From: a virus
Reading direction: 5' to 3' (one strand)
Virus record (IMG/VR): IMGVR_UViG_3300012270_000166
Span: 1-43,658 of that record
Length of the DNA stretch: 43,658 nucleotides
Numbering within the stretch: the stretch's first letter is position 1; each line of letters starts with the position of its first letter. The notes below the pieces were generated by a model. That model worked only from the letters and a program-made list of their open reading frames with translations. It had not been told where the DNA came from and did no database searches. The translations under genes and the position numbers were made by a program. Below, one piece after another: positions 7,590 through 43,658 of the stretch.

Positions 7590-7593
7590 AAAA

Positions 7594-9088: not shown

Positions 9089-9093
9089 AAGAA

Positions 9094-9102: not shown

Positions 9103-9127
9103 AAAAACGTTAAAGGATTTATTTAAA

Positions 9128-9886: not shown

Positions 9887-10110
9887 ATTATACAGTTAGT
9901 AAAGACGGCAATAAGCTAGCAAGCGGGTCTGTCCCGGCGTTGCTAGCAGTTGGTGGAACAAACAAGAACTACGACCTAGCAGGCGTTTGGTTGACTTACA
10001 AGTCTGAAGTTATGACTAAGATAGACCTTTCTGACAATGATGCTATTGATATGTCTTTGTGCTCAGACTGCACAAAAGACGACTGGTTAGCATACAAAGA
10101 AGGTAAATAA
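9862..10110 (+). CDS. Small hypothetical protein, paralogue of 14613
   Basis: An 82-aa protein. It shares with the product of 14613 the pattern Y-T-V, G..L.SG..P..L...G, then L.G.WL, so the two are related. It has a C-terminal CSDC pair (Cys67, Cys70) that the other lacks. The start lies inside the end of the preceding gene (25-nt overlap). The function is unknown; being small, conserved and beside radical SAM genes, it could be a partner or a substrate of them, but nothing in the sequence proves this. It ends 7 nt before the convergent radical SAM gene. Confidence 0.75.
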   Translation: MGNNIKYLNYTVSKDGNKLASGSVPALLAVGGTNKNYDLAGVWLTYKSEVMTKIDLSDNDAIDMSLCSDCTKDDWLAYKEGK

Positions 10111-10117
10111 CACCGTC

Positions 10118-13324: not shown

Positions 13325-13328
13325 GAAA

Positions 13329-13337
13329 TTATTTATA
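13329..13337 (-). promoter_or_regulatory. T4-type late promoter (TATAAATAA) abutting the start codon
   Basis: This is a perfect TATAAATA on the minus strand, five bases from the ATG at 13324. By the T4 rule (octamer at about -13 to -6), transcription would begin at or next to the A of the ATG. It is divergent from the plus-strand octamer at 13351. Confidence 0.65.
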
Positions 13338-13350
13338 CGCCGGCACTGCT

Positions 13351-13359
13351 TATAAATAG
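13351..13359 (+). promoter_or_regulatory. T4-type late promoter (TATAAATAG)
   Basis: A perfect TATAAATA 17 bases before the ATG at 13375. The transcript would carry the GAGG ribosome-binding site (13365-13368). It forms a divergent pair with the minus-strand octamer 14 nt away and drives the plus-strand operon 13375-17023. Confidence 0.75.
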
Positions 13360-13374
13360 AAAAAGAGGATGCAT

Positions 13375-14058
13375 ATGAAACAAGACTTAGTAAACAAAGC
13401 AAAAAACTGGAGTGCCGAGCGTGCAGACCAGTTTCACAACAATATTCCTAGGGTAAACCCAGTTAAAGGCAGCTATATCTGGCTGCCGCAGAACAATGGG
13501 TTTTATTATTGGGGCAAAGATGCTGTTGATTTTTATCGTCACGACGGCCTGGTGTTTTCTGTACAGAAAAAATGGTATGAGTCTGATTGGAAGTGTCACA
13601 AAAGGCTCTACGAGTACAGTATCGAATCTGGAGAATTTAGGATTTCAGAGCCGATGTACTGCGAACCAGTGACTATTAACGGCGAAGAATGGACCTACAC
13701 AGTAATCCGTCATCCAGGAGACGACATAGGATACTCTTCTCATTACAAGGGACTAGTGAAAGACACTTATACATACACTAAACATTGGATTGATGACATA
13801 ACTGTGCTGATAAAGTACTTTGATAAGCTAGACGAAGAATTCGGATGTCAGTACCCTTCAAAAGTTAAGATGACAAACCGTCTCAAAGATGATCAAGGAT
13901 TCTTTTGGAAAGATATCAAGTTTTGGGACAACAGCTTCGAGAGTTTTTATAACAAGCATGTGGGTGAAGTGCAGAAGGCAATTAATCGAGCGGAACACAA
14001 CGGTCAAGATATAGGATGGGAACTAGCAGACTATGCAAAAGATCAATGGGCTAAGTGA
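13375..14058 (+). CDS. Conserved phage protein of unknown function, paralogue of 9128
   Basis: A 227-aa protein from ATG 13375. The upstream ATG at 13369 directly abuts the GAGG ribosome-binding site, so the inner one fits better. It shares with 9128 the FYRHDG segment, the YPSK segment and the C-terminal FY..(H/Q)VGE(V/L)QK run. No catalytic motif or membrane segment was recognised. It is the first gene of a plus-strand operon with four oxygenase-like genes, a small protein and a kinase-like protein. Cytoplasmic; function unknown. Confidence 0.85.
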   Translation: MKQDLVNKAKNWSAERADQFHNNIPRVNPVKGSYIWLPQNNGFYYWGKDAVDFYRHDGLVFSVQKKWYESDWKCHKRLYEYSIESGEFRISEPMYCEPVTINGEEWTYTVIRHPGDDIGYSSHYKGLVKDTYTYTKHWIDDITVLIKYFDKLDEEFGCQYPSKVKMTNRLKDDQGFFWKDIKFWDNSFESFYNKHVGEVQKAINRAEHNGQDIGWELADYAKDQWAK

Positions 14059-14620
14059 TTATGTTGTAGCATTGTCTCAAGAAGTGCCCGAGGTAGTGCA
14101 AAGCAAGTCAGTCCTAGATGTTGAATGTACAGAGAACAGTTTTGTGCAAAAAGAAATAGACAAAGACGCAGTTAACCCTGAGCTGATTACTTGGCTTAAC
14201 AGCTTAGGCTTAGAGATTAAACTAGCAGAGATGTTTTATTGCATGCCTGGATCAAAGGTGCCTGATCATTTTGATGACATAGAACCAGAAGGCTGCTGCA
14301 AGCTAATTTGGACATATGGCAGTAGCAGTGTTCCTTTGGTTTGGTACAGCGTATATGATCAAGATAAGGTTGTTTATGAGAATAATTCTATAGGCGGGTA
14401 TTACCTTACCTGTGAGTCGGACAACTATCAATTCGCTGAGTCTTCAATAATTAAAAACCCTAGTCTAATTAGAGTAGATAAACTGCACGGAGTAGAAAAT
14501 AATACTGACGAACCCTGGTGTGCAGTTACACTGGTGTTGAAAGAAACAGATAGAAACGAGCACAGGGCCAACTGGAAACAGCTAATAGAAAAACTACCAA
14601 TTGAGAGTGATAATGGATAA
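14033..14620 (+). CDS. 2OG oxygenase-like protein with incomplete 2OG site
   Basis: A 195-aa protein. Iron ligands His79-Phe-Asp81 (VPDHFDD) and distal His152 (KLHGVENN) are in place for an AspH-like fold. The basic residue expected ten residues after the distal His is Trp162 (EPWCAV), so the usual 2OG salt bridge is missing and the protein may be inactive or bind another cosubstrate. The start at 14033 overlaps the previous gene by 26 nt; no strong ribosome-binding site was seen, so translation is probably coupled. The next start lies inside its end (ATGGATAA). Confidence 0.8.
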   Translation: MQKINGLSDYVVALSQEVPEVVQSKSVLDVECTENSFVQKEIDKDAVNPELITWLNSLGLEIKLAEMFYCMPGSKVPDHFDDIEPEGCCKLIWTYGSSSVPLVWYSVYDQDKVVYENNSIGGYYLTCESDNYQFAESSIIKNPSLIRVDKLHGVENNTDEPWCAVTLVLKETDRNEHRANWKQLIEKLPIESDNG

Positions 14621-14870
14621 AAATTGTATTGTAAAGTATACTGTATTTGAAGCAGGCGAGCCGTTAATCAGTGGTGAAATCCCTTTACACCTAGTACAAG
14701 CGGGTAGAGGCGGCGACAGCTCTTTAGAAGGCATGTGGTTAGCCGAATGGGGGCTGGACGTCAAAGGCTATCCGGGAAAGTATCGCAGGATCGAGGTATA
14801 CTTTGACGATTTTACGTTTGTGATAAGAGACGATGCCCCGTTCCATAGACAAGAAGAGGATTATAAATGA
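14613..14870 (+). CDS. Small hypothetical protein, paralogue of 9862
   Basis: An 85-aa protein from ATG 14613, which overlaps the previous stop by 8 nt; an in-frame TTG at 14601 is less likely. It shares YTV, G..L.SG..P..L and L.G.WL with 9862. Its tail is acidic and lacks the CSDC pair. The ATGA overlap with 14867 ties it to the kinase-like gene. Its function is unknown; a role as accessory subunit or substrate of the neighbouring enzymes is a guess from the conserved linkage. Confidence 0.75.
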   Translation: MDKNCIVKYTVFEAGEPLISGEIPLHLVQAGRGGDSSLEGMWLAEWGLDVKGYPGKYRRIEVYFDDFTFVIRDDAPFHRQEEDYK

Positions 14871-15559
14871 AGTACGAATATTATTACAACAATACTCCTG
14901 AACACGGCTTAGTAAGAAATAATCTGGTTTACACTAGTCTTATATCCGAAGACAAGAAACGTTTTGTGCAGTGGTTTTATAATGATAAGATATATCATAA
15001 AGACCAGAACCAAGTAATAGATTCTGAGTTAATGGAAGAAAAATGGAATAGAGAAATTTACTTCTTGAAATTGATGCAAAAGAACTATCCTAATCTAGTT
15101 CCGGAGACAGATTTTATTGATCACGAACGAAAGGAACTGTACTTAAAAATAGATGGCGTTGATTTTTGGCAACAGTGCTTAGATGCTGAAAAGAGCTTTG
15201 AAGAGGTGTTGCCAGACTGGGAAGGTCAAATGTTAGAGATACTACAGGCGCACAAAGATTTAGGCTTTTATAAGTATAGCCTGCACCCAAGTAGTTATTT
15301 CTTAATAGACGGCCAGCTAAAGAGTATTAATTACTTTTTCTGTCATGACAATAGTGAAGCAGTACACCCTATGCAAATATTCCAAAGCCATATCAGTCAC
15401 GACAGACAAGCCAAACTTCTAGAATATTTTGAAAAAGAAGGATTATCCTGGGAGAGCACACTAACGTGGACTGCTTATCAGCTCATTGCGTTAGAAAGTT
15501 TTCGGTTTAACTATCCAGACAGTTTTATTGACAGAGCAAGACAGATTTATGTTTCTTAA
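14867..15559 (+). CDS. Kinase-fold-like hypothetical protein
   Basis: A 230-aa protein. Its middle has features that recall the aminoglycoside-phosphotransferase/protein-kinase fold: EREIYFLKLM-like helix (NREIYFLKLM), a strand after LVPE, then HKDLGFYKYSLHPSSYF and SINYFF in the places of the catalytic and metal-binding loops. The catalytic Asp and DFG-type Asp are not clearly present, so it may be a pseudokinase or an unrelated fold. SD AAGAGGA before the ATG, which overlaps the previous stop (ATGA). It ends 11 nt into the next oxygenase gene. Confidence 0.75.
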   Translation: MKYEYYYNNTPEHGLVRNNLVYTSLISEDKKRFVQWFYNDKIYHKDQNQVIDSELMEEKWNREIYFLKLMQKNYPNLVPETDFIDHERKELYLKIDGVDFWQQCLDAEKSFEEVLPDWEGQMLEILQAHKDLGFYKYSLHPSSYFLIDGQLKSINYFFCHDNSEAVHPMQIFQSHISHDRQAKLLEYFEKEGLSWESTLTWTAYQLIALESFRFNYPDSFIDRARQIYVS

Positions 15560-16244
15560 AGATTTGAATCACACTATAAGTACAGAGTCGTTAGCAGACT
15601 ACTTAGAGGATGTTAATTGGGACGATACAAATAGAGCTAACCTTAATCACCCAACAGGGCATCGGCTATACGACCCTTACGAAGTTAATCAAGAGTGGAA
15701 GGGTACTCCGTTTGAAGATTTATTGATAGAGTTAGAACAGTATTCTATTGGCGAAGCAAGACTAATTAAGCTAGGTCCTGGCACCTGCTATAGGTCGCAC
15801 GCAGATATTGATGATCGTATACATTTGAACCTCCTGTCAAACGACCAATGTTATCTGATTAACCTCATAACAAACGAAATGCATAAGACCAGCGCTGATA
15901 ATAAGATCTATTATATGGACGGAAGCTATGTTCACACTGCTGCAAATTTTGGATCAAGCCCAAGAGTACAGTTAGTTGCAAGAGTTAGATTATCTAATTA
16001 CGACGACACTGGTCTTGAACGAATCGAACTTGTGTTTTCGAACAGACCTTATAATCTGCGTTATAACATTGATAATTCTGTGTCTGTGTTAATGTCACAA
16101 TTGATCAAAGAGAAGAACATGAAGTTTATCGAGTTTGCTGATGACCGCATTGTAGTAGAAGTAAACGACGAGTCATTAGATAGACTGAATAAAGAATTAA
16201 ACAAGTTAGAAGTACAATACAAAGTAAAAAGGGGTAATAAATGA
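15549..16244 (+). CDS. 2OG/Fe(II) oxygenase (AspH-like) with C-terminal extension
   Basis: A 231-aa protein from ATG 15549 (an in-frame TTG at 15528 is less likely). CYRSHADIDDRIHLNLL gives His84-Ala-Asp86. GSYVHTAANF gives distal His129, with Arg139 at +10 for 2-oxoglutarate. About 85 residues follow the oxygenase core and are rich in charged residues, forming a separate small domain of unknown role. It overlaps the next oxygenase gene by 4 nt. Confidence 0.88.
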   Translation: MFLKDLNHTISTESLADYLEDVNWDDTNRANLNHPTGHRLYDPYEVNQEWKGTPFEDLLIELEQYSIGEARLIKLGPGTCYRSHADIDDRIHLNLLSNDQCYLINLITNEMHKTSADNKIYYMDGSYVHTAANFGSSPRVQLVARVRLSNYDDTGLERIELVFSNRPYNLRYNIDNSVSVLMSQLIKEKNMKFIEFADDRIVVEVNDESLDRLNKELNKLEVQYKVKRGNK

Positions 16245-17023
16245 TACGAGGCGTTAACAAAAAACCGTATATTAATCTAGACGAGCATATCGACGTTGAA
16301 GGGTTTTCAAAACTGCACTATAAGATTTGTCGAGGAATTGTGCAATCTGAATATAAGAAAGAAGGAAACATGGTAAAGCCGGGCGGATGTGATGGCGCTT
16401 TTGAATTACCTATTAAGCCTCTATACCTTGCACTAGAAGAATATCACGCATTGCCTTACGATCACGAAATAAGAGTAGAAGGTCGTGCTATTGGGGAATA
16501 CGACAATCGAGATCAGTTCATGCTGTTTTTGAAGTTAGCACTAGGAGCATTTGATCCATATCAGTTTGTGTTTCTTAAGACAGAAGCAGGCGGATGGGAT
16601 TCACGATTCGAAGAAAAGACGTGGACACCAGATGCACAATATTTTCCAGAATTAAAACAATGGTTGGAAAACTTAGTCGAACAGAATATATTAACGCACT
16701 TGGGCAGAGTTATCTTTTTTAAAGCAGAACATAATTGTTGGATGCCGCTGCACAGGGACCTAATATTGCCAGACGAGCATGACTACTTTGATCACAGACA
16801 CGAGTTTATTCATATGCGTACTTGTTTGGATAAGCCGTTTTATATATGGGATCCTGAAACAGACGAAAAGGTATTAACCGAAAGTCGAGCAACGTTCTTT
16901 AACGATCAGGACTGGCACGCCGGTGGTACTTCTCCTGTTCAGACTTTTAGCTTGCGCATAGATGGTAAGTTTACAGATGAGTTTCGTGAAAAGATCGGAC
17001 TAGGAAACGTTGATAGTTATTAA
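16241..17023 (+). CDS. 2OG/Fe(II) oxygenase-like protein, paralogue of 18216
   Basis: A 260-aa protein. PLHRDL gives His171-Arg-Asp173, NDQDWHAGG gives distal His226, and SLRIDGKF gives Arg239 at +13. The last 25 residues (GKFTDEFR, then IGLGNVDSY) match those of the product of 18216, so the two are paralogues despite lying on either side of two minus-strand genes. It ends the plus operon, and its stop overlaps the stop of the convergent gene at 17020 by 4 nt. Substrate unknown. Confidence 0.85.
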   Translation: MIRGVNKKPYINLDEHIDVEGFSKLHYKICRGIVQSEYKKEGNMVKPGGCDGAFELPIKPLYLALEEYHALPYDHEIRVEGRAIGEYDNRDQFMLFLKLALGAFDPYQFVFLKTEAGGWDSRFEEKTWTPDAQYFPELKQWLENLVEQNILTHLGRVIFFKAEHNCWMPLHRDLILPDEHDYFDHRHEFIHMRTCLDKPFYIWDPETDEKVLTESRATFFNDQDWHAGGTSPVQTFSLRIDGKFTDEFREKIGLGNVDSY

Positions 17024-17646
17024 ATTGCAATCACTTGTATCGTATACTTAGGATCTGGTCCTAAGTTACTTCCGCCGTGTGGAGTCCAGAAATTAAAAGA
17101 CCACACGTCGCCTTGTTTTCCTTCAGAAATGATTTTATTTCCATACCATAAATGATGCCATGGTTTTATATCTTCGGGAAGTATTGCTAGGCGTTTAATG
17201 TTCTTTATTTTTTCTTCGGGAATTTCAAAGTCGTCTACGAATGCATCTACTGTGTCAACGTGTTGAGGTATACAGCATCCGGGATCTATTCTAGTCACCC
17301 AAATCTTGTACTGAGTAAACATCGATGATAGTTTGCTGTATAGATAGCTCAGATCAGCACCTAATTGATTAGCGTTAATGATTTGCCATTTCACGTTACT
17401 TTTGTCAGCAAACGATGTTGTATGAGTTATTCCTTCGATCTCGTTGTACATAGGATTTTCTCTAGCCATTTTGGACATTGTTTCGAAGTCTCTAATAGTA
17501 ATAGAACTCCAGTCAAACTGTTTAATTGATTCTAGCAGTTCGTTATTAATAACGCTGTTCCATAATCCGATATACACTGGATTGTGTACACCTTTTTCTT
17601 TTAAAAAAACGAATGTTCTGTCGTCTGCCGAGCTTATAATTTTCAT
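17020..17646 (-). CDS. 2OG/Fe(II) oxygenase (AspH-like), Lys variant
   Basis: A 208-aa protein. CIPQHVDTVD gives His129-Val-Asp131. FWTPHGGSN gives distal His190, followed ten residues later by Lys200 (PKYTIQV) where other copies here have Arg. Lys at this place binds 2-oxoglutarate in collagen prolyl hydroxylases, so activity is plausible. A perfect late octamer lies 24 nt before the ATG, inside the end of the upstream oxygenase gene, so the gene can be expressed alone or with it. Confidence 0.85.
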   Translation of the reverse strand: MKIISSADDRTFVFLKEKGVHNPVYIGLWNSVINNELLESIKQFDWSSITIRDFETMSKMARENPMYNEIEGITHTTSFADKSNVKWQIINANQLGADLSYLYSKLSSMFTQYKIWVTRIDPGCCIPQHVDTVDAFVDDFEIPEEKIKNIKRLAILPEDIKPWHHLWYGNKIISEGKQGDVWSFNFWTPHGGSNLGPDPKYTIQVIAI

Positions 17647-18206
17647 TCTATACCTACAATATGCATAACGTATTTATCGGCGAATCCACAGTTAAACCCT
17701 AGGTGATACTCGTCCCATTTATCCCAGCGGTATATTGTGCCTTGAGAGATCATATGGAAGCATTTATTGCCTACTATAAACACTTGCCCTACTTTGCCAG
17801 TTTCTAAGAAGATTGTATATCTAACGAGATTGCCTTCAGCTGCCCATTTGTCTGCTTCGGTTTCTATGTCCCAGTGATAAGGTACACACTTGCCTGGCCG
17901 TATAGCACTGACCCACACGTTCTTTGGTGTTACGTTTAACTGCTCTGCAACCTTTGTTACATGCGAATCGTTAAAATGTTCGCCTGGATAAAAGTTAATC
18001 CATTCCACAGAATCATTAGTAAAGTAGCCGCCGTGTTGCCACTGTTGCATCATTTGATCAACTGACTGTTGTATATTGTCGCTAAGAGTAACATCTGTGC
18101 CATACGGCTTTTCCGCAGTTTTGTAGTGGCCGTGGTCAATGTTTAACTCACTTACCAGAGCTTCGCAATCGAACCTTTCTTTACTTGTGTGATTATTTTC
18201 GTTCAT
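17643..18206 (-). CDS. 2OG/Fe(II) oxygenase (AspH-like), Lys variant
   Basis: A 187-aa protein from ATG 18206. GTG at 18236 would add ten residues and cannot be excluded; neither start has a good ribosome-binding site. VPYHWDIET gives His111-Trp-Asp113. DEYHLGFN gives distal His168, with Lys178 at +10 (DKYVMHIVG). It overlaps 17646 by 4 nt and looks like a diverged tandem copy of 17020 (same H.D, H, K layout and size). The divergent oxygenase gene at 18216 starts 10 nt away, or would overlap if GTG is used. Confidence 0.82.
   Translation of the reverse strand: MNENNHTSKERFDCEALVSELNIDHGHYKTAEKPYGTDVTLSDNIQQSVDQMMQQWQHGGYFTNDSVEWINFYPGEHFNDSHVTKVAEQLNVTPKNVWVSAIRPGKCVPYHWDIETEADKWAAEGNLVRYTIFLETGKVGQVFIVGNKCFHMISQGTIYRWDKWDEYHLGFNCGFADKYVMHIVGIE
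17670..17678 (-). promoter_or_regulatory. T4-type late promoter (GATAAATAC)
   Basis: GATAAATAC on the minus strand, 23 bases before the ATG at 17646, inside the 3' end of the upstream oxygenase gene. It is identical to the octamer form before 9128 and 33477. Confidence 0.72.
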
Positions 18207-18212
18207 AAATAT
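18204..18212 (+). promoter_or_regulatory. Late promoter (CATAAATAT) abutting the start codon
   Basis: CATAAATA on the plus strand, four bases before the ATG at 18216. No Shine-Dalgarno is present, so a late transcript from here would be leaderless or nearly so. The octamer also covers the ATG (minus strand) of the divergent gene at 18206. CATAAATA also precedes the gene at 42466. Confidence 0.5.
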
Positions 18213-18215
18213 TGT

Positions 18216-19082
18216 ATGCTCACTATTAACGGACACCCTTATATTACATTAGACAAGTATTTAAACATTCCAAAATTCCTAGATTTGAGAAATGACTTTG
18301 AGTTTCTAGTATCTAACAGTTGGGAACACATCAGAACGGGTGTATGGAACGCAGGCGGACATTCCCCGCACGACTATTATAACGCACCTGAGATCTTTAG
18401 AGAAAAGGGATTGCTGTATTACGTGTATCGTCAAGCAAACGAAGACCGTAAAATAGACGAAAAACTTAATCAGCATCTAAAACATTTTGAAGACAAAGAT
18501 GATTTACACGGGTTGTCAAGATACTTGAAGCTTCGTTACGATGCATACGATCCGTATAACATTCTTAATATACGTAAAACGTTCGGTCCTTATTATGCTG
18601 CTGACTCTTACATATTTACCGAGGAAGACTGGGCAAAGTATTATTGGGAAGAATATATGGAAGAGTATCCGGCGATAAAAGATTTTATTATAAACGATCT
18701 GCCATTTGACGAAATCGGAGTGGTTACTTTGTTTTACAATGAGCATTTTGTAGTGCAAAACTTTCATCGAGACTTTAACTACTTTCCTTATGAAAAAGGC
18801 GATAAGCCAGAAACATTTCCGCACAGGCAAGAATTGATTTGGTTACGTTTTGATTTAGACAGACCTTTTTGTTTGTTTGAATTAGATATAGAGAATGGGG
18901 ATGTAATAAAAGAATATCCTGTTGAAGGATATTCGGCGTTTTTTAATCATCATAACTGGCACGGTTGTTTTGAAAGCAATCCTTATACGTCTATTACTTT
19001 AAAAGTAGAAGGCAAGTTCACCGATGAATTTAGAAAACTCATCGGTGTTGATAATCTAGAATACTATTATTACGAGGATTAA
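18216..19082 (+). CDS. 2OG/Fe(II) oxygenase-like protein, paralogue of 16241, Lys variant
   Basis: A 288-aa protein from ATG 18216; an in-frame GTG at 18189 would read through the promoter. NFHRDFN gives His184-Arg-Asp186. NHHNWHGCFES gives distal His249. LKVEGKFTDEFR has Lys263 where 16241 has Arg239. The C-terminal 25 residues match 16241 closely. The N-terminal 160 residues are rich in Tyr and Asp and probably specific for the substrate. The stop codon lies in a perfect inverted repeat shared with the convergent fibre gene. Confidence 0.85.
   Translation: MLTINGHPYITLDKYLNIPKFLDLRNDFEFLVSNSWEHIRTGVWNAGGHSPHDYYNAPEIFREKGLLYYVYRQANEDRKIDEKLNQHLKHFEDKDDLHGLSRYLKLRYDAYDPYNILNIRKTFGPYYAADSYIFTEEDWAKYYWEEYMEEYPAIKDFIINDLPFDEIGVVTLFYNEHFVVQNFHRDFNYFPYEKGDKPETFPHRQELIWLRFDLDRPFCLFELDIENGDVIKEYPVEGYSAFFNHHNWHGCFESNPYTSITLKVEGKFTDEFRKLIGVDNLEYYYYED
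18257..18265 (-). promoter_or_regulatory. Weak late promoter candidate (TTTAAATAC)
   Basis: TTTAAATA on the minus strand matches the octamer at seven of eight positions and would begin a transcript about 15 nt before the GTG at 18236 or 45 nt before the ATG at 18206. It lies inside the coding region of 18216. Kept because no better promoter is seen for the minus-strand oxygenase pair. Confidence 0.3.
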
Positions 19083-19098
19083 GGAGTTAATCCTCGTA
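19071..19098. terminator. Perfect 12-bp inverted repeat over two convergent stop codons
   Basis: TACGAGGATTAA (19071-19082) and its exact complement (19087-19098) enclose a 4-base loop, GGAG. The left arm encodes Y-E-D-stop of the oxygenase at 18216. The right arm encodes the last residues of the giant fibre protein, and its stop codon (19079-19081) falls in the left arm. Either transcript can fold it. There is no T-tract on either side, so it may protect 3' ends or block converging polymerases, not act as a classic intrinsic terminator. Confidence 0.6.
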
Positions 19099-22000
19099 TG
19101 TCTCTAATACCAGGTGCAGTCTTAGTTAGATCATATCTTGCTTCGTTTACAACTTGTCCAACGTCTGCTATGAACTTATATTTTATACCTCTAGCATCAC
19201 CTGTTATTTGAGGATATGATACTTGAACGTATTCTCCGTCCCACTGTCTTCCGGTAGGGCCTGTGTGTTCAATTGAACGATCTGGTATTGCCGTAAGTAA
19301 TGGCTCGAACCCTACGTCGGCAAACTCTAATACGTAAACATCGTTTTGTGTCAAAGAATACTGATAAGCGTAACTAGTAGCTGCACCTACTACAAACAGC
19401 TTAGATTGGTTATTGTTAAACGTGAATCCAAACGCAGCTTGATCCTGCGGTCGGGTATCGTAGAAATCGTCTGAATAACTTGCTGATGTTATGGCGTATG
19501 GCTGTGTCAATGTATATTTGTATACTCCAGTTTCGGTGTTAGCACCGAGCGTATATAAAACTGTTCCGTCCAGGCTAAATGCTAAGCCAACCATTAAGCT
19601 ATTTTGACTACCTACAAACAGGTTTATATTGTCATACTGAGTATTCAACGCAAATGAATTATACGCTGCTGTTGTAAGGTCGTACGGCGTTGACAGTTCG
19701 CATTGGTAAATTAAGCCAGCCAGAGTCCCAATAATGAACATTTTAGTTCCGTTGTTGTTAAACACAAGCCCTCCGAGACGATCATCCACTTGCATGCTAA
19801 ACACTACATTGTCGTATGACACAGTTGTTATATCAAACGGAGTTGTTAACGTATATTGATATACTTCGGCATTAGTTTTAACTCTACTACCAGTAATAAA
19901 CATTTTAGACCCATCGTCATTAAATGCAATACCGTTTGGGTTCGTTTCTGTGTCGGATGTTAGAGTAAAGGTTCCTCCGTTGTACACTGCTGATCCTGTT
20001 TCGTACGGTGTTGATAAATCATATTCATATAACTTGCCAAGGCCTGCTGAAACGTATAACTTTGTTCCGTTGTTATTAAAAGTCATAGAATTTGGCCCAC
20101 TTACTTCAGAGAACGTATTGAGTTTAATCACTGCTGAATCTGGTTCGTAAGGTACATTTAGAAGGTATTGGTTTATACCGGTCCCAGAAGACCCTAGTAC
20201 TCTAGCGCCGCCTAAGGTGTACAGCCTTGTGCCGTCGTTACTAAATGTAAAGTCACGATAATTAGGACCGAACGAGTCTCCACCTGGTCTCACTAATCTG
20301 TCAACTGTTGCTGTTGATATATCGTACGGTGTGCTTAATGTATAACGTATGAATTGGAGGGCGTCTTCGTCTAGGAACATTACACTTCCGTCGTTGTTAA
20401 ATGTAAAGACATTAGGAAAGTCTTGCTCAACTGCTGTATTAAGAAACACGCTGTTATATGTCACAGACGAGATACTGTAAGGAGTATTTAATGTGTATTG
20501 ATATATGGTATCACTGTTGTAGCCTACCATATATAACCTAGTTCCGTCGTCGTTAAAGTTTATGTCTCGTAGCGAAGAGTCCTGCGGGTCTGTGTCAAGG
20601 GTTATACTATCATAAGACATTGTTGAGATGTCAAATGCTGTTGTAAGTGAATACTGATGGATAACAGAGTCATTACCGTCAGTTAAGAGCATAATCGTGC
20701 CGTCTGCACTAAAGAGTATATGTCTTGGTGCTGCTGTTTGTACAGATAAATCATAAGATATGCTGTCGTAACTTGCAGTTGAAACATCGTTTGCAGTCGA
20801 TAACGTATATTGGAAAAGAAAAGCTGATGTACCGTCGAGTACAAACATCTTTGTACCGTTGTTACTAAATGCAAACGATCGAGGATTGGTGCCTTGAGCA
20901 TCTACGCTAAAGAACTTAACCGCGTAAACTGCCGTAGAGATATCATACGGGGTACTTAATAAGAATGGTTTTACCCTGTTTCGGTATGTGTCAATTACGT
21001 ACATTTTTGTACCGTCGTTATTAAAAGTAATGCTCCAAGCTGTATCAACAACTGGGCCAACAAAGAAACTCACTCCGTCGTAGCTTGCTGTTGATAAATC
21101 AAACGCAGGCGACAAAGAGTACTGGTAGACAGTATTGGTTGTATCGCCTATCACATACATTTTTGTACCAGTGTTATTAAACGCAAGACTTCGTGCAGTA
21201 ATGTCCTGTGGACTAACGTCGAGGTTAGTAGGGGATATCCCTGTGCTGCCTACTACGTCATAAGGTACTGCTACAGAAAGTTCGTAGATTCGATTCGAGT
21301 TAGTTGTAAAGAGTTTTGTACCGTTGTTATTAAATGCTAGCCCGAACATACCTTCTATCGCCCCTGTCGTGGCGCCGATATCGTATGAGCCATCAAGGGT
21401 TATTGTAGTAATATCATATGCAGTCGACAATGAGAACTGATGTATATTTGCTGGCACGCCCTTCAGTACATATAGTTTTGTGCCGTCATTATTAAAAATA
21501 GCATCAACTAGGTCAGTGGCGGTTGACGTAAAATCAAAGTTTACTCCGGTATACGTCACAGAGTCACTTAGCTCAAACGGGACAGCCAGAGCGTATTCAT
21601 ATATACTACTGTTATATGCTCCTAATGCAAACATCTTTAGTCCTGTATCATCAAACAATATAGCTACTGGACTATCTTGGCCGCCAACGACTTTTTTTAC
21701 AGAGTCGTATGATGAAGTTGAGATGTTGTACGATGTTGCTAGCGAATATTGATACACTGCCTCGCCGGCTGGATTCGATGATGCCTCCAGCAAGTTATTC
21801 GATAATGTGTCTAGGACGTACATAAATTGCCCACCAGCAGATAGAGCCATGCTAGTTGAACTCGGAGCTTCGTTAGCTACACTAAAGCTGGCCGCAGGCG
21901 TAGAGTTTGCAGTCGACACGTCAAACGGTGTAACTACACTGTACTGATAAACAGTCGGAGTATTTTGAATACCAAATACGTACAATCTTGTTCCGGCATC

Positions 22001-25000
22001 GTTGAATTCTACACTAAATGGAAATGCATTTTGTGTGTTTACATTAAAACTTTTTCCGTCATAACTTGCCGTTGACACATCGTATACTGTCGACAGAGAG
22101 AACTGATAAACAGAGTCGGTGCTATCGCCTACTACATACATTTTTGAACCAGTGTTATTGAAAGTTAAATCTCTTGGAGATCCTTCTTGGCCGCCGACAC
22201 TAAAATTTAAAGTGTCGTACGTAGCTGTTGACAAGTCAAATGGAGTAGACATAGTGTACTGGTATATATCAGCATTATTGTTTCCGACTACATATAGTTT
22301 AGTGCCTGCTGGGTTTAATGCAATTCCTGTTGGGGTCACATCTTGAGATCTTACGGTTATGTGTTTTCTGTCGTAGTCTGCTGTCGATAAGTCAAAAGGA
22401 GTTGACATAGTATATTGGTATACGGTGTCAGTCGAACCGCCTAGCATATACATTTTTGTACCGTCAACACTGATTTCTATAGCCTCCGGAGTAGCATCTT
22501 CGCCTTCGATGCCGTAACGGAACCCGTCATATGTTATTGATGCTACGTCCGGACCTACAGCTGACAGAACAGGGTCAGCTGTAAGAGGTGTTTCTGGTCC
22601 GGCAACTAAGGCAGTGCCGTTAATTGAGTTGTTGATTGAATATTGATAAACTGAACCAGTAAACGAGCCACTGTAGTAAAGTTTAGTTCCGTCTGGACTG
22701 AAAATAATATCGCGTGCATCCGGATCTTGTGGACCTGTGTCGAATGTTTTATTGATATAACTAGCACTTGATACGTCAAACGGTGTTGTTAACTCGTATT
22801 CGTAGATTGTAGCAGTAATCGAGACCATATACATTCTTGAACCTCGACTGTTAAATGCAATTGCTCGCGATCCGCTATCCTGCGGGCTGAAGCCAAACGA
22901 TACATTGTTATACGTGATCGTAGTAATGTCGTAAGGTGTTCCTAGAGTATATTGGTAAACCGTGTCGCTATTAATGCCAAGCACAAACATTTTTGTGCCG
23001 TCGTTGTTAAATGCAAAATCGTAAGGAGAAAAGTCTTGATTGCTAACATCAAAACCTACATCGTCAAATGTTACAGTTTTGTTAGGACGGTATTCTGCTG
23101 TTGTTATATCAAACGGCGTTGTTAACAGAAGCACATGAATTGCAACAGGATCTTGATCATCGACTAGAAAAACTCTTGTCCCGGCACTGTTGAATCTAAC
23201 GCTGTATATCTGAGCACCTCGGTTATTGTCCAACCCGATTTCGTTTAGGTCAATGTTTTCGATAGGAACACTTAAAGTTGCAACATCATACGGCGTCGAT
23301 AGGTTATATTGAGACAGCCGGCCGGTGCTATTCATAGCAAATAACTGCGTGCCGTCGTTGTTGAAAACAAAATCGTACGCTCCAACTCTGTTATTGTCTC
23401 CGTTACTGAGGTTAAATGATACATTATTAAATACTGCGGTTGAGATATCAAATGCTGTTGATAAGTCGTATTCGTTAATATTGTCTTGGGTTATTCCGCC
23501 GATGTACATTTTAGTACCAGTTGGGTTAAAAGTAATTGCCCACGGTACAGTTTCTTGTGCTCCAACACTAAACGTAACTCCTGTATACGTTGCAGTTGTA
23601 ACATCAAATGCTGTTGATAAATTATGTTCGTACACATTGTCATTGTCAGAACCAGTCATAAACAGTTTGGTACCGTCTGTACTAAATGTCATGCCGAGCA
23701 TAGAGTTGTCAGTAGCAGTTGACTGGTAACTTGTAGCGCCCGCTAAATTTGCTGTAGTTGGGTCAAAAGGCGTTGACACATCAAACTGATAAACAGTACC
23801 GTTGGAGTCTAGAATATAAAAAACAGTTCCGTCTGATTTTGTTATAAGTGCAGAGGTATCAGGTGTTAAACTAGTAATATCAACACTTGTACCAGGATCC
23901 CCGTCGCCGTTGCTTATATCAAAAGGCACAGACAGCGAATATTGATAAACAGTATCTGATGATGAATCTAGTATATACATTTTTGTGCCAGCATCATTAA
24001 ATTTTACACTTAACGGAAATCCTGATTCAGAAATAAGATCTACACCACCACTTACAGATGACGAAGAGAGTTCAAAAGGCGTTGACAGATTATATTGTGT
24101 AATAAACCTATCATTGGCGTCAACGATATAAACTTTAGTACCGTCAGGGCTTATCCCGATTCCATCAGGAGTTGTTGAGTTTTCATCACCGTCGATTAAC
24201 GATCCGTCGTAGGTTGCCCATGAAATTGATTCTGATAAAGTTCCAGAGTAAGGAATAATATTATCGCCGGATTGTAAAGCACCTGCATCAGTTGAATTTA
24301 CAGTTACGTAGTCTGAAGACGTTGATCTTATGTATGGCAGTGGTAAATCTCTTGCTAGACATCTTGCGGGATCAAGTTCGTACGAAGTAAACATTCTTGG
24401 CAAACTATCACGACAGACTACTGTTGGCGCATTAGTTAAGCCTAAAGACGAAATATCGGCTGAATACGAAATATTGCCGATTGTATATTGATATACGCCA
24501 TCATTTCTAGTTCCAGATATGTACATTTTTGTACCAGCATTATTAAAAGCAATGCCCTTTCCGTAGTCGTCTTCTGAAGCTGTATTGTAAATTATATTAT
24601 CATAAGAAGTGGTTGCCAGGTCAAATGCTGTTGTAAGTGAATATTGATGTACATCTTCAACGAAAATATCAAATATAAACATTTTAGTACCGTCAACACT
24701 GAATGCAAAGCTGCCCGCATTAAAGGTTTGACCTGTTATATCGAAACTTACTCCGTTATAGGTTACGTTAGACAGATCGTATGCTACTGCTACTTCGTAT
24801 TGGTACACAGTAGCATACGAAATTCCACACATAAACAGCTTTGTTCCGTCATTATTAAATGCAACCGATTTAGGATTCGAATTCTGAAAACTAAAGCTGA
24901 AACTTACGTTGTCGTACGATAGCGTCGAAAGGTCGTACGCTGTTGATAACGAATATTGATAGACCACATTAGAGTTTCCACCACATACGTAGAACTTACT

Positions 25001-25561
25001 TCCGTCGTTGTTAAACATTATGTCTTCTGGTCGATTGTCTTGCGTGGCTATTCCGAAAGTTGTGCCGTCGTATGTTGCTGTTGATAAATCAAACTCAGTC
25101 GACAGTGTATACGGTATTACTACGGCTGCGTCAGTGTCTAGAACAAATAATTTTGACCCCGTATCATTGAAGGTAAACTGACCAGGAATGTAAGCCCCAG
25201 TTCCTTCAGAGGGTCGAAGAACGACATTATCATACGTGGCGTTTTCGATTTCGTAAGCAGTAACAGTTTCTGTAACAGGACCTAAGTTGCCTGTTACTAG
25301 TTGCGTCTCGGTGCCGTCTTTAGCAAGAACTGGGTCTCCTTCGACTGGAAGTGGTCCGTCGACTATGATCACCTCAACGTTAGTCGAGGCACCGTCAATA
25401 GTGTAAGCAGGCCCTAAACCGTTATAACTTGGCGCATAACTGGTCCAATCAGAATCTGCGAATTCTTGCTCAAGTGTGTCCGATACGTAAACTGAACCGT
25501 TTTTTGTTGGAACTATTCCGGTTGCGTCTGTTGCTGGTTGTGGGTCTATTAAAACTGGCAT
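19079..25561 (-). CDS. Giant virion adhesin/fibre protein with about 35 propeller-type repeats
   Basis: A 2160-aa protein from ATG 25561; a longer in-frame start at 25600 would overlap the upstream gene more. By eye, about 35 copies of a roughly 52-residue repeat run through it, each with F(N/S)xDGTK(M/L)(Y/F)(V/I).G, then VYQYSLSTP(F/Y)D(L/I)STA. Such repeats form blades of NHL/YncE-like beta-propellers. Short repeat-free linkers follow about the 5th and the 15th copies. The N-terminal 120 residues and the C-terminal 80 lack the repeat and may attach to the virion. The neighbours are structural genes, so it is probably a host-binding fibre or tip. No signal peptide. Confidence 0.88.
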   Translation of the reverse strand: MPVLIDPQPATDATGIVPTKNGSVYVSDTLEQEFADSDWTSYAPSYNGLGPAYTIDGASTNVEVIIVDGPLPVEGDPVLAKDGTETQLVTGNLGPVTETVTAYEIENATYDNVVLRPSEGTGAYIPGQFTFNDTGSKLFVLDTDAAVVIPYTLSTEFDLSTATYDGTTFGIATQDNRPEDIMFNNDGSKFYVCGGNSNVVYQYSLSTAYDLSTLSYDNVSFSFSFQNSNPKSVAFNNDGTKLFMCGISYATVYQYEVAVAYDLSNVTYNGVSFDITGQTFNAGSFAFSVDGTKMFIFDIFVEDVHQYSLTTAFDLATTSYDNIIYNTASEDDYGKGIAFNNAGTKMYISGTRNDGVYQYTIGNISYSADISSLGLTNAPTVVCRDSLPRMFTSYELDPARCLARDLPLPYIRSTSSDYVTVNSTDAGALQSGDNIIPYSGTLSESISWATYDGSLIDGDENSTTPDGIGISPDGTKVYIVDANDRFITQYNLSTPFELSSSSVSGGVDLISESGFPLSVKFNDAGTKMYILDSSSDTVYQYSLSVPFDISNGDGDPGTSVDITSLTPDTSALITKSDGTVFYILDSNGTVYQFDVSTPFDPTTANLAGATSYQSTATDNSMLGMTFSTDGTKLFMTGSDNDNVYEHNLSTAFDVTTATYTGVTFSVGAQETVPWAITFNPTGTKMYIGGITQDNINEYDLSTAFDISTAVFNNVSFNLSNGDNNRVGAYDFVFNNDGTQLFAMNSTGRLSQYNLSTPYDVATLSVPIENIDLNEIGLDNNRGAQIYSVRFNSAGTRVFLVDDQDPVAIHVLLLTTPFDITTAEYRPNKTVTFDDVGFDVSNQDFSPYDFAFNNDGTKMFVLGINSDTVYQYTLGTPYDITTITYNNVSFGFSPQDSGSRAIAFNSRGSRMYMVSITATIYEYELTTPFDVSSASYINKTFDTGPQDPDARDIIFSPDGTKLYYSGSFTGSVYQYSINNSINGTALVAGPETPLTADPVLSAVGPDVASITYDGFRYGIEGEDATPEAIEISVDGTKMYMLGGSTDTVYQYTMSTPFDLSTADYDRKHITVRSQDVTPTGIALNPAGTKLYVVGNNNADIYQYTMSTPFDLSTATYDTLNFSVGGQEGSPRDLTFNNTGSKMYVVGDSTDSVYQFSLSTVYDVSTASYDGKSFNVNTQNAFPFSVEFNDAGTRLYVFGIQNTPTVYQYSVVTPFDVSTANSTPAASFSVANEAPSSTSMALSAGGQFMYVLDTLSNNLLEASSNPAGEAVYQYSLATSYNISTSSYDSVKKVVGGQDSPVAILFDDTGLKMFALGAYNSSIYEYALAVPFELSDSVTYTGVNFDFTSTATDLVDAIFNNDGTKLYVLKGVPANIHQFSLSTAYDITTITLDGSYDIGATTGAIEGMFGLAFNNNGTKLFTTNSNRIYELSVAVPYDVVGSTGISPTNLDVSPQDITARSLAFNNTGTKMYVIGDTTNTVYQYSLSPAFDLSTASYDGVSFFVGPVVDTAWSITFNNDGTKMYVIDTYRNRVKPFLLSTPYDISTAVYAVKFFSVDAQGTNPRSFAFSNNGTKMFVLDGTSAFLFQYTLSTANDVSTASYDSISYDLSVQTAAPRHILFSADGTIMLLTDGNDSVIHQYSLTTAFDISTMSYDSITLDTDPQDSSLRDINFNDDGTRLYMVGYNSDTIYQYTLNTPYSISSVTYNSVFLNTAVEQDFPNVFTFNNDGSVMFLDEDALQFIRYTLSTPYDISTATVDRLVRPGGDSFGPNYRDFTFSNDGTRLYTLGGARVLGSSGTGINQYLLNVPYEPDSAVIKLNTFSEVSGPNSMTFNNNGTKLYVSAGLGKLYEYDLSTPYETGSAVYNGGTFTLTSDTETNPNGIAFNDDGSKMFITGSRVKTNAEVYQYTLTTPFDITTVSYDNVVFSMQVDDRLGGLVFNNNGTKMFIIGTLAGLIYQCELSTPYDLTTAAYNSFALNTQYDNINLFVGSQNSLMVGLAFSLDGTVLYTLGANTETGVYKYTLTQPYAITSASYSDDFYDTRPQDQAAFGFTFNNNQSKLFVVGAATSYAYQYSLTQNDVYVLEFADVGFEPLLTAIPDRSIEHTGPTGRQWDGEYVQVSYPQITGDARGIKYKFIADVGQVVNEARYDLTKTAPGIRDIRGLTP
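19120..25250 (-). repeat. Tandem imperfect repeats of about 156 bp inside the giant fibre gene
   Basis: The protein repeat of about 52 residues is also visible in DNA as recurring runs on the plus strand such as CCGTCGTTGTTAAA, GTATATTGATA and ATCAAACGGTGT, spaced about 156 bases apart. Copies differ at many synonymous positions, so they are old, but shared runs of 15-20 bases remain that could recombine. Two interruptions, near 24,200-24,450 and 22,540-22,640, divide the array. The end points given are approximate. Confidence 0.75.
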
Positions 25562-25562
25562 A

Positions 25563-27539
25563 TTACTGTGGCACTCCGCCTTGGTCTGGATCATCGACAA
25601 TTATGTCTGGTGCATTGACCGGTGTATTGTCTAAATCAGTTTCTGTTTCGATGATAGGATCGTCTGGTATAGTTCCTATAGGTATTTGTGTATTAAACGG
25701 CCACTTTTGCTGTGCAAAATCTTTACAAAGTCTGAAATCAAGAATGGCTCCGCCTAGGTTACCAGCAGCCACCGAAATACCGTTGAACGCTCCGGGACTC
25801 GGGAATGGTATAGCGTAAACCTTGTCCGGGTTAGCGTCGTAATCTTCTGCTGTTACTGTTAACGATACTGACGATGCTGTTGGTTTCGGTCCAAATGAAG
25901 CATAAGCGTTAGGATCTCTGTAGACTAAGTTAAAGGTATAAACAGCTTCGGGAATGGTTGAAGAATCAAAGTTAGGTCTAAAATAGATAACTGCTTCGTC
26001 AGATTCAAAGTCGGTTCCTGTAGTAAAGTAATTCAGCGGGTCAGAGCCGTCTGCAACCCAAAATAGCAAGTCGTGGACCGGATCAGCGGGTCCAAATGAT
26101 GCTTCGAGTTCGCCGTCACTGTTAGTAATAAACACAAAACTACCGTCTACAGGATTGTCATACGGGTCTACTAAATGTAACATCTGACTTCCGTCAAGTG
26201 CAAATAAAGTACGGACGTCGTCAGTTGGTGCTTGTTCGCCTATTGAAATAGCCTTATCTGCGTACTGATCCTCGTTCAGTGCTAACCAACTTATTCCGCA
26301 CACAAATACAAACGCAGCAATATCGCCGATCAAGTCCCACTCGTTTTCACCGATTTTAGTCAGTGTCATGGCACTATATTGATCCCTTGTTGTTAGAAAG
26401 CCCGATGAACTGTTTACAGTGACAGCGGGATCTGGCACAATCTGAACTGTGCCAACGCCGTTTTGGAAAAACGAGACGCTTGACCCAACGGGTATATTCT
26501 CTAGTGTAGTAGTTGGCACGTTTACGTCTACAGTACCAAAACTTGTTACTCGTATGTATGTGTTGATGTCATCTGTGTCAACAGTAAAGTCTGCGCTTGC
26601 TGATGCGATAGTAATTTCTTCTGCACCGCCCCCGCCACTAGCTTCTCCGGGAATCCATCGTCCTACAGGTTGACCTGTATCGTCGTCTAACGGTCCTGCG
26701 GTAGGATCCCAAACTATTGTTTGACCATCTTGCACGGATCCGTACGGAGCGTCTACATCATCTAGGTCATTAAGGAATTGTACATCGCTAGTGCCAGCGC
26801 CTGATGTAGCTTCAGAAGTATTATTGAAGCCGCCTAGGTATTTGACGTATACAGTTCCTGGGTCGTCTTCTGCCCAGTTATATGTCCAAAATTCAAAAAC
26901 TTGTGATAGCAAGTCAGTGGTGCTATCATCGATAAGAACATATTCTTCAGACGGTAGCCCTATCTCGGCCTTTAGACGTGTTGCTGAATATTCTTCGCCT
27001 TGGTTTAAAGCATCGTCCCAGAGAACGTTAGGATCCTTTTTAATAAGGCCTCCGCCGTCACTTGAGAATGTTACAGTATAAGGTCCGTTGGTGTCTGCTG
27101 TTAGTTCTACAATTATGCTACCGTAGTTTTCTTCTGGCCAGTTAATAAAAGAAAAGTCTACATCGCCTGTAACTGTAAAAGACTGGTATTGCCCTGCATC
27201 AAAATCGATAAGATCAATGCCTTCTGGTGCAGAACCTGGTTCACCTTCTTGTGGGCTAGATTGACTTGGTACCGTTTGCCTTGCAGAACCATCTTCGCCT
27301 GTTGCTACCTGTTGAGTAAAGGATTTAAGGTTAAGCCTTTCAAGGGTGTTATTTTCGAGACTTGAACTAATAGTATCTTTGCGAACAGCATTGTTTTGCA
27401 AGTCTGTCATTTCTTGATTTGCAGTTCCAAGGCTCTTTTTAATTGCGGCAAAGTTATCTCGGAAGCCTTGACTGTCGTTATCTTGCCCAGGCTCGGGATA
27501 TCGTTCGTTAATTGTTATAAATTCTATTTTACTAGCCAT
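25563..27539 (-). CDS. Virion structural protein (cyanophage/pelagiphage type)
   Basis: A 658-aa protein. The N terminus (ITINERYPEPGQDNDSQGFR, then DNFAAIKK) resembles a conserved N-terminal module of structural proteins in marine T4-like phages, which probably docks the protein to the particle. The rest is Gly/Ser/Asp/Thr-rich beta-type sequence with a proline-rich acidic tail. No enzyme motif was seen. ATG 27539 has SD AAAGGA and a perfect late octamer 20 nt upstream. Its stop is 2 nt from the start of the giant fibre gene (TAATATG), so both are made together. Confidence 0.85.
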   Translation of the reverse strand: MASKIEFITINERYPEPGQDNDSQGFRDNFAAIKKSLGTANQEMTDLQNNAVRKDTISSSLENNTLERLNLKSFTQQVATGEDGSARQTVPSQSSPQEGEPGSAPEGIDLIDFDAGQYQSFTVTGDVDFSFINWPEENYGSIIVELTADTNGPYTVTFSSDGGGLIKKDPNVLWDDALNQGEEYSATRLKAEIGLPSEEYVLIDDSTTDLLSQVFEFWTYNWAEDDPGTVYVKYLGGFNNTSEATSGAGTSDVQFLNDLDDVDAPYGSVQDGQTIVWDPTAGPLDDDTGQPVGRWIPGEASGGGGAEEITIASASADFTVDTDDINTYIRVTSFGTVDVNVPTTTLENIPVGSSVSFFQNGVGTVQIVPDPAVTVNSSSGFLTTRDQYSAMTLTKIGENEWDLIGDIAAFVFVCGISWLALNEDQYADKAISIGEQAPTDDVRTLFALDGSQMLHLVDPYDNPVDGSFVFITNSDGELEASFGPADPVHDLLFWVADGSDPLNYFTTGTDFESDEAVIYFRPNFDSSTIPEAVYTFNLVYRDPNAYASFGPKPTASSVSLTVTAEDYDANPDKVYAIPFPSPGAFNGISVAAGNLGGAILDFRLCKDFAQQKWPFNTQIPIGTIPDDPIIETETDLDNTPVNAPDIIVDDPDQGGVPQ

Positions 27540-41721: not shown

Positions 41722-41966
41722 TAGTCTTGCATATTGTCAAGTTCATCTTTCTTCATCCACGGAAACGTTTCTGTAAACAACTCCGGGCGCGTTAGTGCGA
41801 ACCACCACAGTCGAATGTGATTGATTCTATTACTTGAGTCAGCAGGTGCATTTTTTGTCCTCGCAAATTGAACCAAGGTAATTAGGCCAATTGCTGTTGC
41901 AAATATTCCTGCTATTACTAGTAATGCAATTAATACCTTTACTAAAAACAAAATTATCGCTGTCAT
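41721..41966 (-). CDS. Small membrane protein
   Basis: An 81-aa protein with one long hydrophobic segment at residues 3-32 (AIILFLVKVLIALLVIAGIF at its start), then a charged, Trp-rich C terminus, expected in the cytoplasm or the periplasm. It could sit in the host inner membrane, but it is not recognised as a holin or spanin. ATGA overlap with 41963 and TAATG overlap with 41721, so it is co-translated. Confidence 0.75.
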   Translation of the reverse strand: MTAIILFLVKVLIALLVIAGIFATAIGLITLVQFARTKNAPADSSNRINHIRLWWFALTRPELFTETFPWMKKDELDNMQD

Positions 41967-42466
41967 GATACCTCCGAACGGCTGTTGCCCAGTGATTCGA
42001 CGTTGATATAGCCTGCTGCTCTGCTCTGCGGATCAACACCTTCTTCTGAAAGCATTTGGCTCACAATATCACGGAACCAACGGTCTACTACTTCTTCTTC
42101 GGGGTCGGCTTCCTCGCCGTATCCTGCTTGTTTTAATGATACAATAAACTCGTTGTTCCAGTCAAGCTCAAAAAACCCGTTACGGATATTATCTTCGTTA
42201 ACGTGGGTTTCGATAACATCTACCCAAGGCTCGCCTTTCTTTGTTGCTCGGTCCTTGGGCGACATTTTAGCAAGCTCGCGGTCTTCTTTAACACGGGCTG
42301 CTTCTGCTGCTTCTTTAGCTTCTAGCTCGGCAACTTCCTTGCGTTTCTTTGCTGCTGCTTTTTCATACTCTAGGTGTTCTTTTCTAGCTAGCTCAAGACG
42401 AGCCTCTTCTTCTGCTCTTGCTCGTTCGATTTTTTCAATGCCTGTGATCTTTTTCCAAATTCCCAT
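41963..42466 (-). CDS. Coiled-coil conserved phage protein
   Basis: A 167-aa protein. The first half is a long charged helix (Glu/Lys/Ala/Arg), typical of a coiled coil. The second half contains GEPWVDVIETHVNEDNIRNG, FFELDWNNEF and EEEVVDRWFRD, which I associate with a conserved protein of T4-like cyanophages. ATG 42466 has SD AAGGAG and a late octamer 19 nt upstream. Function unknown. Confidence 0.8.
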   Translation of the reverse strand: MGIWKKITGIEKIERARAEEEARLELARKEHLEYEKAAAKKRKEVAELEAKEAAEAARVKEDRELAKMSPKDRATKKGEPWVDVIETHVNEDNIRNGFFELDWNNEFIVSLKQAGYGEEADPEEEVVDRWFRDIVSQMLSEEGVDPQSRAAGYINVESLGNSRSEVS

Positions 42467-42484: not shown

Positions 42485-42493
42485 GTATTTATG
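42485..42493 (-). promoter_or_regulatory. T4-type late promoter (CATAAATAC)
   Basis: CATAAATA overlaps the TAA stop of the endonuclease gene (42489-42491) and lies 18 bases before ATG 42466. It would let 42466-41419 be read late, independently of the endonuclease. Confidence 0.72.
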
Positions 42494-43259
42494 TGCCCCA
42501 ATGTACTATTAAACCGTATCCTGCGTCTTTAATTTTGTTTTCGTAGTAAATCGTTTTTTCGTATAGTTCTTTCATTTTAACTTTTAGTATTGGGTGTTGC
42601 TCTTCTGGATCATACGTGTTAGGACATCCGTGCCAGAATCTTCCGTGATATAGGTAAACAGTGTTGGTGTCGTAATCATATCCGTCTACAGTATAGTATA
42701 CGTCCTCTAAAAATACTTGTCTACCTATGACGTTTAAACTATCTAGCCATTTAGTTTCTGCTTTGCTCACGCTTGCTTGATTGCCCCAGCACGGCTTGAA
42801 ATTTATATGCGCTGCAATTCTTGATCTTTCTCTGTTGTTTTCTTTTGAACAAGTAGGACACGCTTCGTTCACTACACTATTGCCTACTAGACTTCTTGTC
42901 CATTGACTAAATTCGCCGTGTACTTTACATTCTACAATAATCTTTCGTCTTTCTGTTGGGTCAAATCTAGCATTCGATAATATATAGTGATCGTACCATC
43001 TTTTCTTTATTTCTTGTACTCGATCATTGATAGTCTTTTTTTGTGCTGGTATTCTATTTTCGTGGTATCCTGTTTGACAGCAATATTTGCGAGATATTAG
43101 TTGCCATCCAAATAATTCATAAGTTCCATGCTTGCACTTGTACTTATATTTTGCGTCGACGCCTTTGTATTCGTTTATAAAAACTTTTATATTTGTATTG
43201 GTGTCATTTACTTTGTGTAAAAACTCTTCCTTACTATATTTGTTAATTGGATTAGTCAT
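42489..43259 (-). CDS. Free-standing homing endonuclease-like protein
   Basis: A 256-aa protein. Two Cys/His repeats (CKHGTYELF near 42-50, CC at 60-61; CKVHGEF at 111-117, CPTC at 134-137) look like zinc ribbons for DNA binding. Then AETKWLD (167-173), VDGYDYD (191-197) and YLYHGRFWHG (202-211) recall the Vsr/EDxHD-type nuclease core of phage homing endonucleases. Its target is unknown. It is inserted between the queE-like gene and the coiled-coil gene. Its start lies right beside a 17-bp inverted repeat with a late promoter in the loop, probably controlling its timing. Confidence 0.82.
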   Translation of the reverse strand: MTNPINKYSKEEFLHKVNDTNTNIKVFINEYKGVDAKYKYKCKHGTYELFGWQLISRKYCCQTGYHENRIPAQKKTINDRVQEIKKRWYDHYILSNARFDPTERRKIIVECKVHGEFSQWTRSLVGNSVVNEACPTCSKENNRERSRIAAHINFKPCWGNQASVSKAETKWLDSLNVIGRQVFLEDVYYTVDGYDYDTNTVYLYHGRFWHGCPNTYDPEEQHPILKVKMKELYEKTIYYENKIKDAGYGLIVHWGT

Positions 43260-43260
43260 A

Positions 43261-43315
43261 AGTGTCCCATTTATTACTTAAAATTATTTATCTTTTTTGT
43301 AATAAATGGGACACT
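43261..43315 (-). promoter_or_regulatory. 17-bp inverted repeat enclosing a late promoter, with SD in the stem
   Basis: Arms AGTGTCCCATTTATTAC (both on the minus strand 43315-43299 and, inverted, 43277-43261) are perfect complements with a 21-nt loop. The proximal arm includes GGGA, the likely ribosome-binding site six bases before ATG 43259. A read-through transcript from upstream would fold and hide the site. A transcript from the octamer in the loop lacks the distal arm and exposes it. T4 I-TevI and mobE use this kind of control. Confidence 0.75.
43284..43292 (-). promoter_or_regulatory. T4-type late promoter (GATAAATAA) in the hairpin loop
   Basis: GATAAATA in the loop of the inverted repeat, 24 bases before ATG 43259. 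The start of transcription falls about six bases downstream, within the loop, past the distal arm. Confidence 0.75.
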
Positions 43316-43322
43316 TTTTAGG

Positions 43323-43658
43323 TTACGTAGACCATGCATTGCCGAACAATTGAATATGAAGTCTTGGAGAGAATCTCCAGCCCTGCTTCATTGCAATTTC
43401 TGCAACCTTAGGTTCGTTCATTTCATATTCTTCGCTGCGACCGCCTAGTGGCATCAAGTACACCGGACATTCCACGCCTGCTAATCTGTATTCCGCCACA
43501 GCTTTATGTACTTCTTCAACGTCGATCTGGTCTGCTACAACAAACTTTAGATACATATCGCTGTTAGGTAGACTGTACTTGTATGTTGCAACTACTTCTG
43601 GCTTGATCGCTTGTGCCCACTCTTCGCCGCTTACTGTTAGTTTAGGCGAACAACTCCA
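43323..43658 (-). CDS. queE: QueE-like radical SAM protein, C-terminal part only
   Basis: The 5' part lies beyond the window, so the CxxxCxxC core is not visible. The 111 residues present match the C-terminal half of 7-carboxy-7-deazaguanine synthase: CSPKLTVSGEEW, YLKFVV, VYLMPLGG and RLHIQLFGNAWST at the end. QueE makes the carbon skeleton of deazaguanines (queuosine or archaeosine path), and in phages it may feed 7-deazaguanine DNA modification. The stop is 8 nt before the inverted repeat of the endonuclease gene. Confidence 0.85.
   Translation of the reverse strand, partial: WSCSPKLTVSGEEWAQAIKPEVVATYKYSLPNSDMYLKFVVADQIDVEEVHKAVAEYRLAGVECPVYLMPLGGRSEEYEMNEPKVAEIAMKQGWRFSPRLHIQLFGNAWST

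Follow-up and report, generated by a model that had tools for sequence, protein, structure and literature searches.

A homing-endonuclease-like gene lies directly after queE in a phage genome, behind a hairpin whose loop carries a T4-type late promoter motif. This arrangement raises the question of what the hairpin does for the endonuclease and how it is maintained. The locus was analysed in the window, namely the whole stretch of 43,658 nucleotides of the viral IMG/VR record IMGVR_UViG_3300012270_000166 (positions 1 to 43,658), which is a fragment of a phage genome. Elsewhere, the window holds a 2173-aa ORF with ~52-aa (156-nt) repeats near the tail genes (19079-25600), and a group of non-structural ORFs, some of them radical-SAM-like (942-19082), that is unusual for a tailed phage fragment.

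The queE stop codon and the endonuclease start codon are separated by 63 nt of the minus strand, which contain a perfect inverted repeat (Table 1). No second inverted repeat of equal quality was found anywhere in the window, and the pairing of the arms extends to 24 nt if two mismatches are allowed. The RNA hairpin has a predicted folding energy of -27.8 kcal/mol (z = -6.3), which none of 200 dinucleotide shuffles equalled. The first-pass annotation was confirmed in its observation of a hairpin before the endonuclease, and had slightly understated it. The repeat is perfect as described, with arms of 18 bp instead of 17. The proximal arm abuts the start codon with no base between them, whereas a one-base gap had been reported. 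The 21-nt loop enclosing the promoter motif and the GGGA covered by the proximal arm are both as first described.

Table 1. Features of the queE-endonuclease junction and its surroundings in the window
Feature	Position	Strand	Remarks
queE 3' part (QueE-like radical SAM protein)	43323..43658	-	upstream neighbour; phrog_2076, E 4.9e-17
Hairpin distal (5') arm	43299..43316	-	18 nt, AAGTGTCCCATTTATTAC
Hairpin loop	43278..43298	-	21 nt, AAAAAAGATAAATAATTTTAA; reverse orientation in L002/L011
T4-type late promoter motif GATAAATA	43285..43292	-	inside the hairpin loop
Hairpin proximal (3') arm	43260..43277	-	18 nt, GTAATAAATGGGACACTT; abuts ATG 43259
GGGA, Shine-Dalgarno-like	43265..43268	-	buried in the proximal arm
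Homing-endonuclease-like gene, free-standing, 256 aa	42489..43259	-	phrog_559, phrog_681, Vsr fold match
Late promoter ATAAATAC for the downstream structural gene 41963-42466	42485..42492	-	overlaps the endonuclease stop codon

The N-terminal half of the endonuclease consists of zinc-finger-like repeats with conserved Cys and His residues and matches the phrog_559 and phrog_681 endonucleases. Sequence searches of Pfam, NCBIfam and PDB gave no match. In the AlphaFold2 model (pLDDT 80.6), the best solved match of the C-terminal half is E. coli Vsr (1vsr, the top hit, with a probability of 1.00, E 9e-3 and a modest TM-score over 98 columns), and E168, D192, H205 and H210 are invariant across 17 relatives of the protein. 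The C-terminal domain is thus modelled as having a Vsr-like nuclease fold, the type that had been proposed from the sequence at first. The gene is named a homing endonuclease by its family and distribution, and its product would be expected to act as a nuclease.

The loop motif GATAAATA occurs seven times in the window, mostly preceding tail and structural genes. Six of the seven copies precede a gene start on the same strand by 4-50 nt, against 0.15 expected (p about 8e-10). The leaders of the six other late promoters fold no better than their shuffles (z from -1.4 to +1.7, compared with -7.8 for the hairpin leader), indicating that such a structure is peculiar to the endonuclease leader. Ten related contigs contain genes for gp55-type late sigma factors (phrog_234, phrog_12791), and five of these contigs also bear the endonuclease (G007, G009, G010, G019 and G021). 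Such genes were not found in the remaining related contigs searched, all of them partial, nor was a late sigma gene identified within the 43.7 kb of the window, itself a genome fragment.

Folding predictions suggest how these elements would act together. Comparison of the long RNA with the RNA started in the loop, as the first-pass annotation had proposed, showed a start site that is closed in the former and open in the latter. The opening energy of the start site (computed for -14 to +5 around the ATG, with the late start assumed ~6 nt after the promoter) is 22.7 kcal/mol in the long RNA versus 2.8 kcal/mol in the predicted late RNA, and 16 family members have 11.0-23.3 kcal/mol in the read-through RNA versus 2.4-6.1 kcal/mol in the late RNA. 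Transcripts entering from queE or from further upstream would carry both arms and fold. The stem would then hide the ribosome-binding site as far as the start codon, and the endonuclease is accordingly proposed not to be made early. After takeover by a gp55-type late sigma factor, transcription would initiate from GATAAATA in the loop at ~20 nt before the ATG. The resulting RNA would lack the distal arm and leave the ribosome-binding site open for translation of the endonuclease. The predicted folding, the statistics of the late promoter and the family comparison below all support the first-pass reading of the hairpin as a timing switch like those of T4 I-TevI and of mobE, by which the endonuclease is probably kept silent until late infection. 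From the sequences, we assign this reading a probability of about 0.86.

The hairpin is a constant feature of the endonuclease family. Scans of IMG/VR gave 68 family loci, with queE directly upstream in 65 and the remaining three cut by contig ends. No family member was found in bacterial and archaeal genome contigs. Among reference phages there were no DNA relatives, and a protein search there returned distant ones only. Nearly all of the ~40 distinct leaders fold into a hairpin and have a TAAATA-type promoter within its loop or next to it, and the Shine-Dalgarno sequence lies inside the 3' arm in all 32 non-redundant hairpins. This count leaves out the divergent loci L143 and L155, which have a different layout, with the hairpin further upstream or the promoter otherwise arranged and the ribosome-binding site free. 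The promoter lies within the 3' arm in L160, and L165 has a weak TGTAAATA. In eight contigs (L167-L173 and L184; for example, L168 near 1965-2005), the shared endonuclease has its frame broken 12-14 codons after the ATG at A AAA AAG, which is a classical slippery sequence for -1 frameshifting. Slippage in this direction would restore the family reading, and these genes may be pseudogenes or subject to programmed frameshifting.

The distal arms are highly diverged (AAGTGTCCCATTTATTAC in the window, CCAACTGTT in L125, GTCCTCCAAGCAT in L154 and ATATCCCCATCCTTT in L168), and all still pair with their proximal arms. The mean duplex energy is -19.5 kcal/mol for a leader's own arms versus -11.5 kcal/mol for swapped arms, and none of 20,000 permutations reached the observed sum. 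The own arm ranks first or close to first among the possible partners in just 16 of the 32 rows, because many arms have common C-rich or G-rich cores. An alignment of nine sequences showed double-sided changes in 10 of the 18 pairs, with 83% of the cells paired. Its covariation score was not matched by any of 500 shuffles, and sliding the partner destroys the covariation. The compensatory changes that were to be looked for in related phages are present, as seen in the arm swaps, in the nine-sequence alignment and in the 32-hairpin set. On the sense strand, G-U pairs outnumber A-C mismatches (37 versus 20, p 0.033), a modest sign of selection on the pairing of the sense RNA rather than of the DNA. 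Template switching during replication could by itself keep the arms paired at the DNA level without selection on the RNA.

The same data bear on the proposal that the inverted repeat serves as an operator at the DNA level, with its arms bound by a protein dimer, possibly of the endonuclease itself, that represses the enclosed late promoter. I-TevI does bind an operator over its own late promoter and thereby represses itself (PMC2988022). Between the window and L012, the arms also diverge in step with the N-terminal half of the endonuclease, the two genes agreeing at 55-72% in the first 300 nt and at 92-100% in the last 300. However, linkage alone predicts such joint divergence. The arm sequences of the family have almost nothing in common while their pairing persists, and the invariable placement of the Shine-Dalgarno sequence in the 3' arm and the excess of G-U over A-C on the sense strand likewise speak against an operator. 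Binding of a protein to the arms would be compatible with the timing switch, and we consider it unlikely.

The most surprising part of the analysis is a near-identical relative in which the loop is inverted. In IMGVR_UViG_3300028371_000016 (L002, L008, L011, L038 and L123), the 21-nt loop is the exact reverse complement of that in the window, with arms and near flanks identical to those of the window. The late promoter of this contig faces queE, so that the endonuclease loses its promoter, and the endonuclease frame is interrupted by a stop at codon 158. The loop is in the forward orientation in the window, L001/L007 and L009. A pattern scan of the viral contigs found this one contig only, and no further inverted loop was present in ~40 other distinct upstream regions. 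An assembly error is thought unlikely as the source, because the 18-bp arms are below the usual assembly word length and a single read would span the 57-bp element.

When a polymerase switches templates, it is known to leave an inverted spacer together with homogenised arms; this was proposed first from phage studies and has been reported for yeast genes and for RNA genes (PMC8604942, PMC8794818). The inverted loop is consistent with template switching from one perfect arm to the other, a process that can also explain why all 18 pairs are matched despite the turnover of the arm sequences. Selection and template switching during replication probably each contribute to keeping the arms matched. 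It would go further to regard the hairpin also as a recombinase-free promoter switch, in which template switching between the arms flips the loop at a useful rate. Phage populations would then hold "on" forms with the promoter towards the endonuclease and "off" forms with the promoter towards queE, a heritable switching of a selfish gene. We regard this extension as rather unlikely. That the repeat is simply a by-product of template switching with no regulatory role is highly improbable. The perfect arms and the exactly inverted loop are the footprints that such an origin would leave (PMC8604942, PMC8794818), but a neutral repeat would not keep the Shine-Dalgarno sequence within the 3' arm of every one of the 32 hairpins or the late promoter in or beside nearly every loop, nor would it produce the G-U bias, and a comparable hairpin is absent from the phage's remaining late promoters. 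A role as transcription terminator or attenuator for the queE RNA, for which a stable stem just past the queE stop and a TTTTT after the stem on the opposite strand could be cited, was rejected as scarcely credible, since the stem on the sense strand leads into the ATG with no T run, it encloses a promoter, and a terminator scan found no terminator-like site around the hairpin on either strand.

Comparisons of closely related phages delimit the unit to which the proposed timing switch belongs. In L039-L043, the next gene follows ~15-30 nt after queE with neither hairpin nor endonuclease, and L043 has 97.6-98% identity to the window downstream of the cassette. Conversely, the contig of L009/L033 has no mismatch to the window in 115 nt over the hairpin and the endonuclease start, versus 81 mismatches in 330 nt (~25%) of the adjoining queE. 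Similarly, L012 and L013 are identical over 320 nt in the 5' part of the endonuclease and have 53 differences in 600 nt of queE. The absence of the hairpin from the endonuclease-free alleles and the sharp 115-nt block of identity indicate that hairpin, promoter and endonuclease move as one cassette, which would spread between phages by homing downstream of queE. With alleles present and absent at one site, the cassette appears to be mobile as a unit. In L102, only the last endonuclease codons are left after queE (3795-3968), and this remainder is a scar. L187 and L188 likewise retain only the last part of the endonuclease after queE.

The 3' end of the endonuclease (TGGGGCACATAAATAC, window 42485-42520) resembles the 3' end of queE (TGGGGCACGTAAATAA) in endonuclease-free alleles such as L043. 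A late-promoter-like motif lies over the stop codon and before the next gene at both ends, and the copy at the queE stop of L043 (TGGGGCACGTAAATA) is similar to ATAAATAC. Judged from these ends, insertion of the cassette may re-create the end of queE.

The inverted-loop relative and the family-wide conservation of the hairpin go beyond the first-pass annotation. A large family of Vsr-like homing cassettes, carried by uncultured T4-like phages, appears to have the T4 hairpin and late-promoter device as a constant component that travels with the cassette, which places the device beyond T4 itself and beside another kind of nuclease. Arm turnover with retained pairing, together with a natural loop inversion, makes the origin and persistence of long perfect RNA stems, by template switching or by stepwise compensation, directly testable in a small and strong system. 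The inversion also raises the possibility of promoter flipping without a recombinase.

The device itself is known from I-TevI, I-TevII, I-TevIII, segB, Aeh1 mobE and T4 e and soc (PMC2988022, PMC3014915); as far as the literature showed, it had been described neither with this nuclease class nor in this phage family. In the late genes e and soc of T4, the start site is hidden by a helix in early RNAs, and the late promoters of e give RNA without the 5' part of the structure (PMC3014915). These are phage genes, whereas the gene studied here is a mobile endonuclease. With EDxHD homing endonucleases (I-Bth0305I) and E. coli Vsr, the comparison lies in a C-terminal domain whose model matches the Vsr fold and in conserved E, D and H residues, but here the N-terminal half belongs to the phage HNH/endonuclease families phrog_559/681 and the protein has no sequence match to any solved structure. 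Aeh1 mobE and T4 segB are free-standing homing endonucleases with a matching arrangement of hairpin and late promoter (PMC2988022), of the HNH and GIY-YIG types, respectively, and beside other genes, while the present gene is Vsr-like and follows queE; no report of a loop inversion in their hairpins was found in the literature. In T4 I-TevI of the td intron, a stable RNA structure hides the ribosome-binding site in early and middle read-through RNA, as proposed here, and the position of the late promoter likewise leaves the distal arm out of the late RNA (PMC2988022, PMC3014915). I-TevI is an intronic GIY-YIG enzyme, whereas the present endonuclease is encoded by a free-standing, Vsr-like gene after queE, with a perfect 18-bp repeat as its stem.
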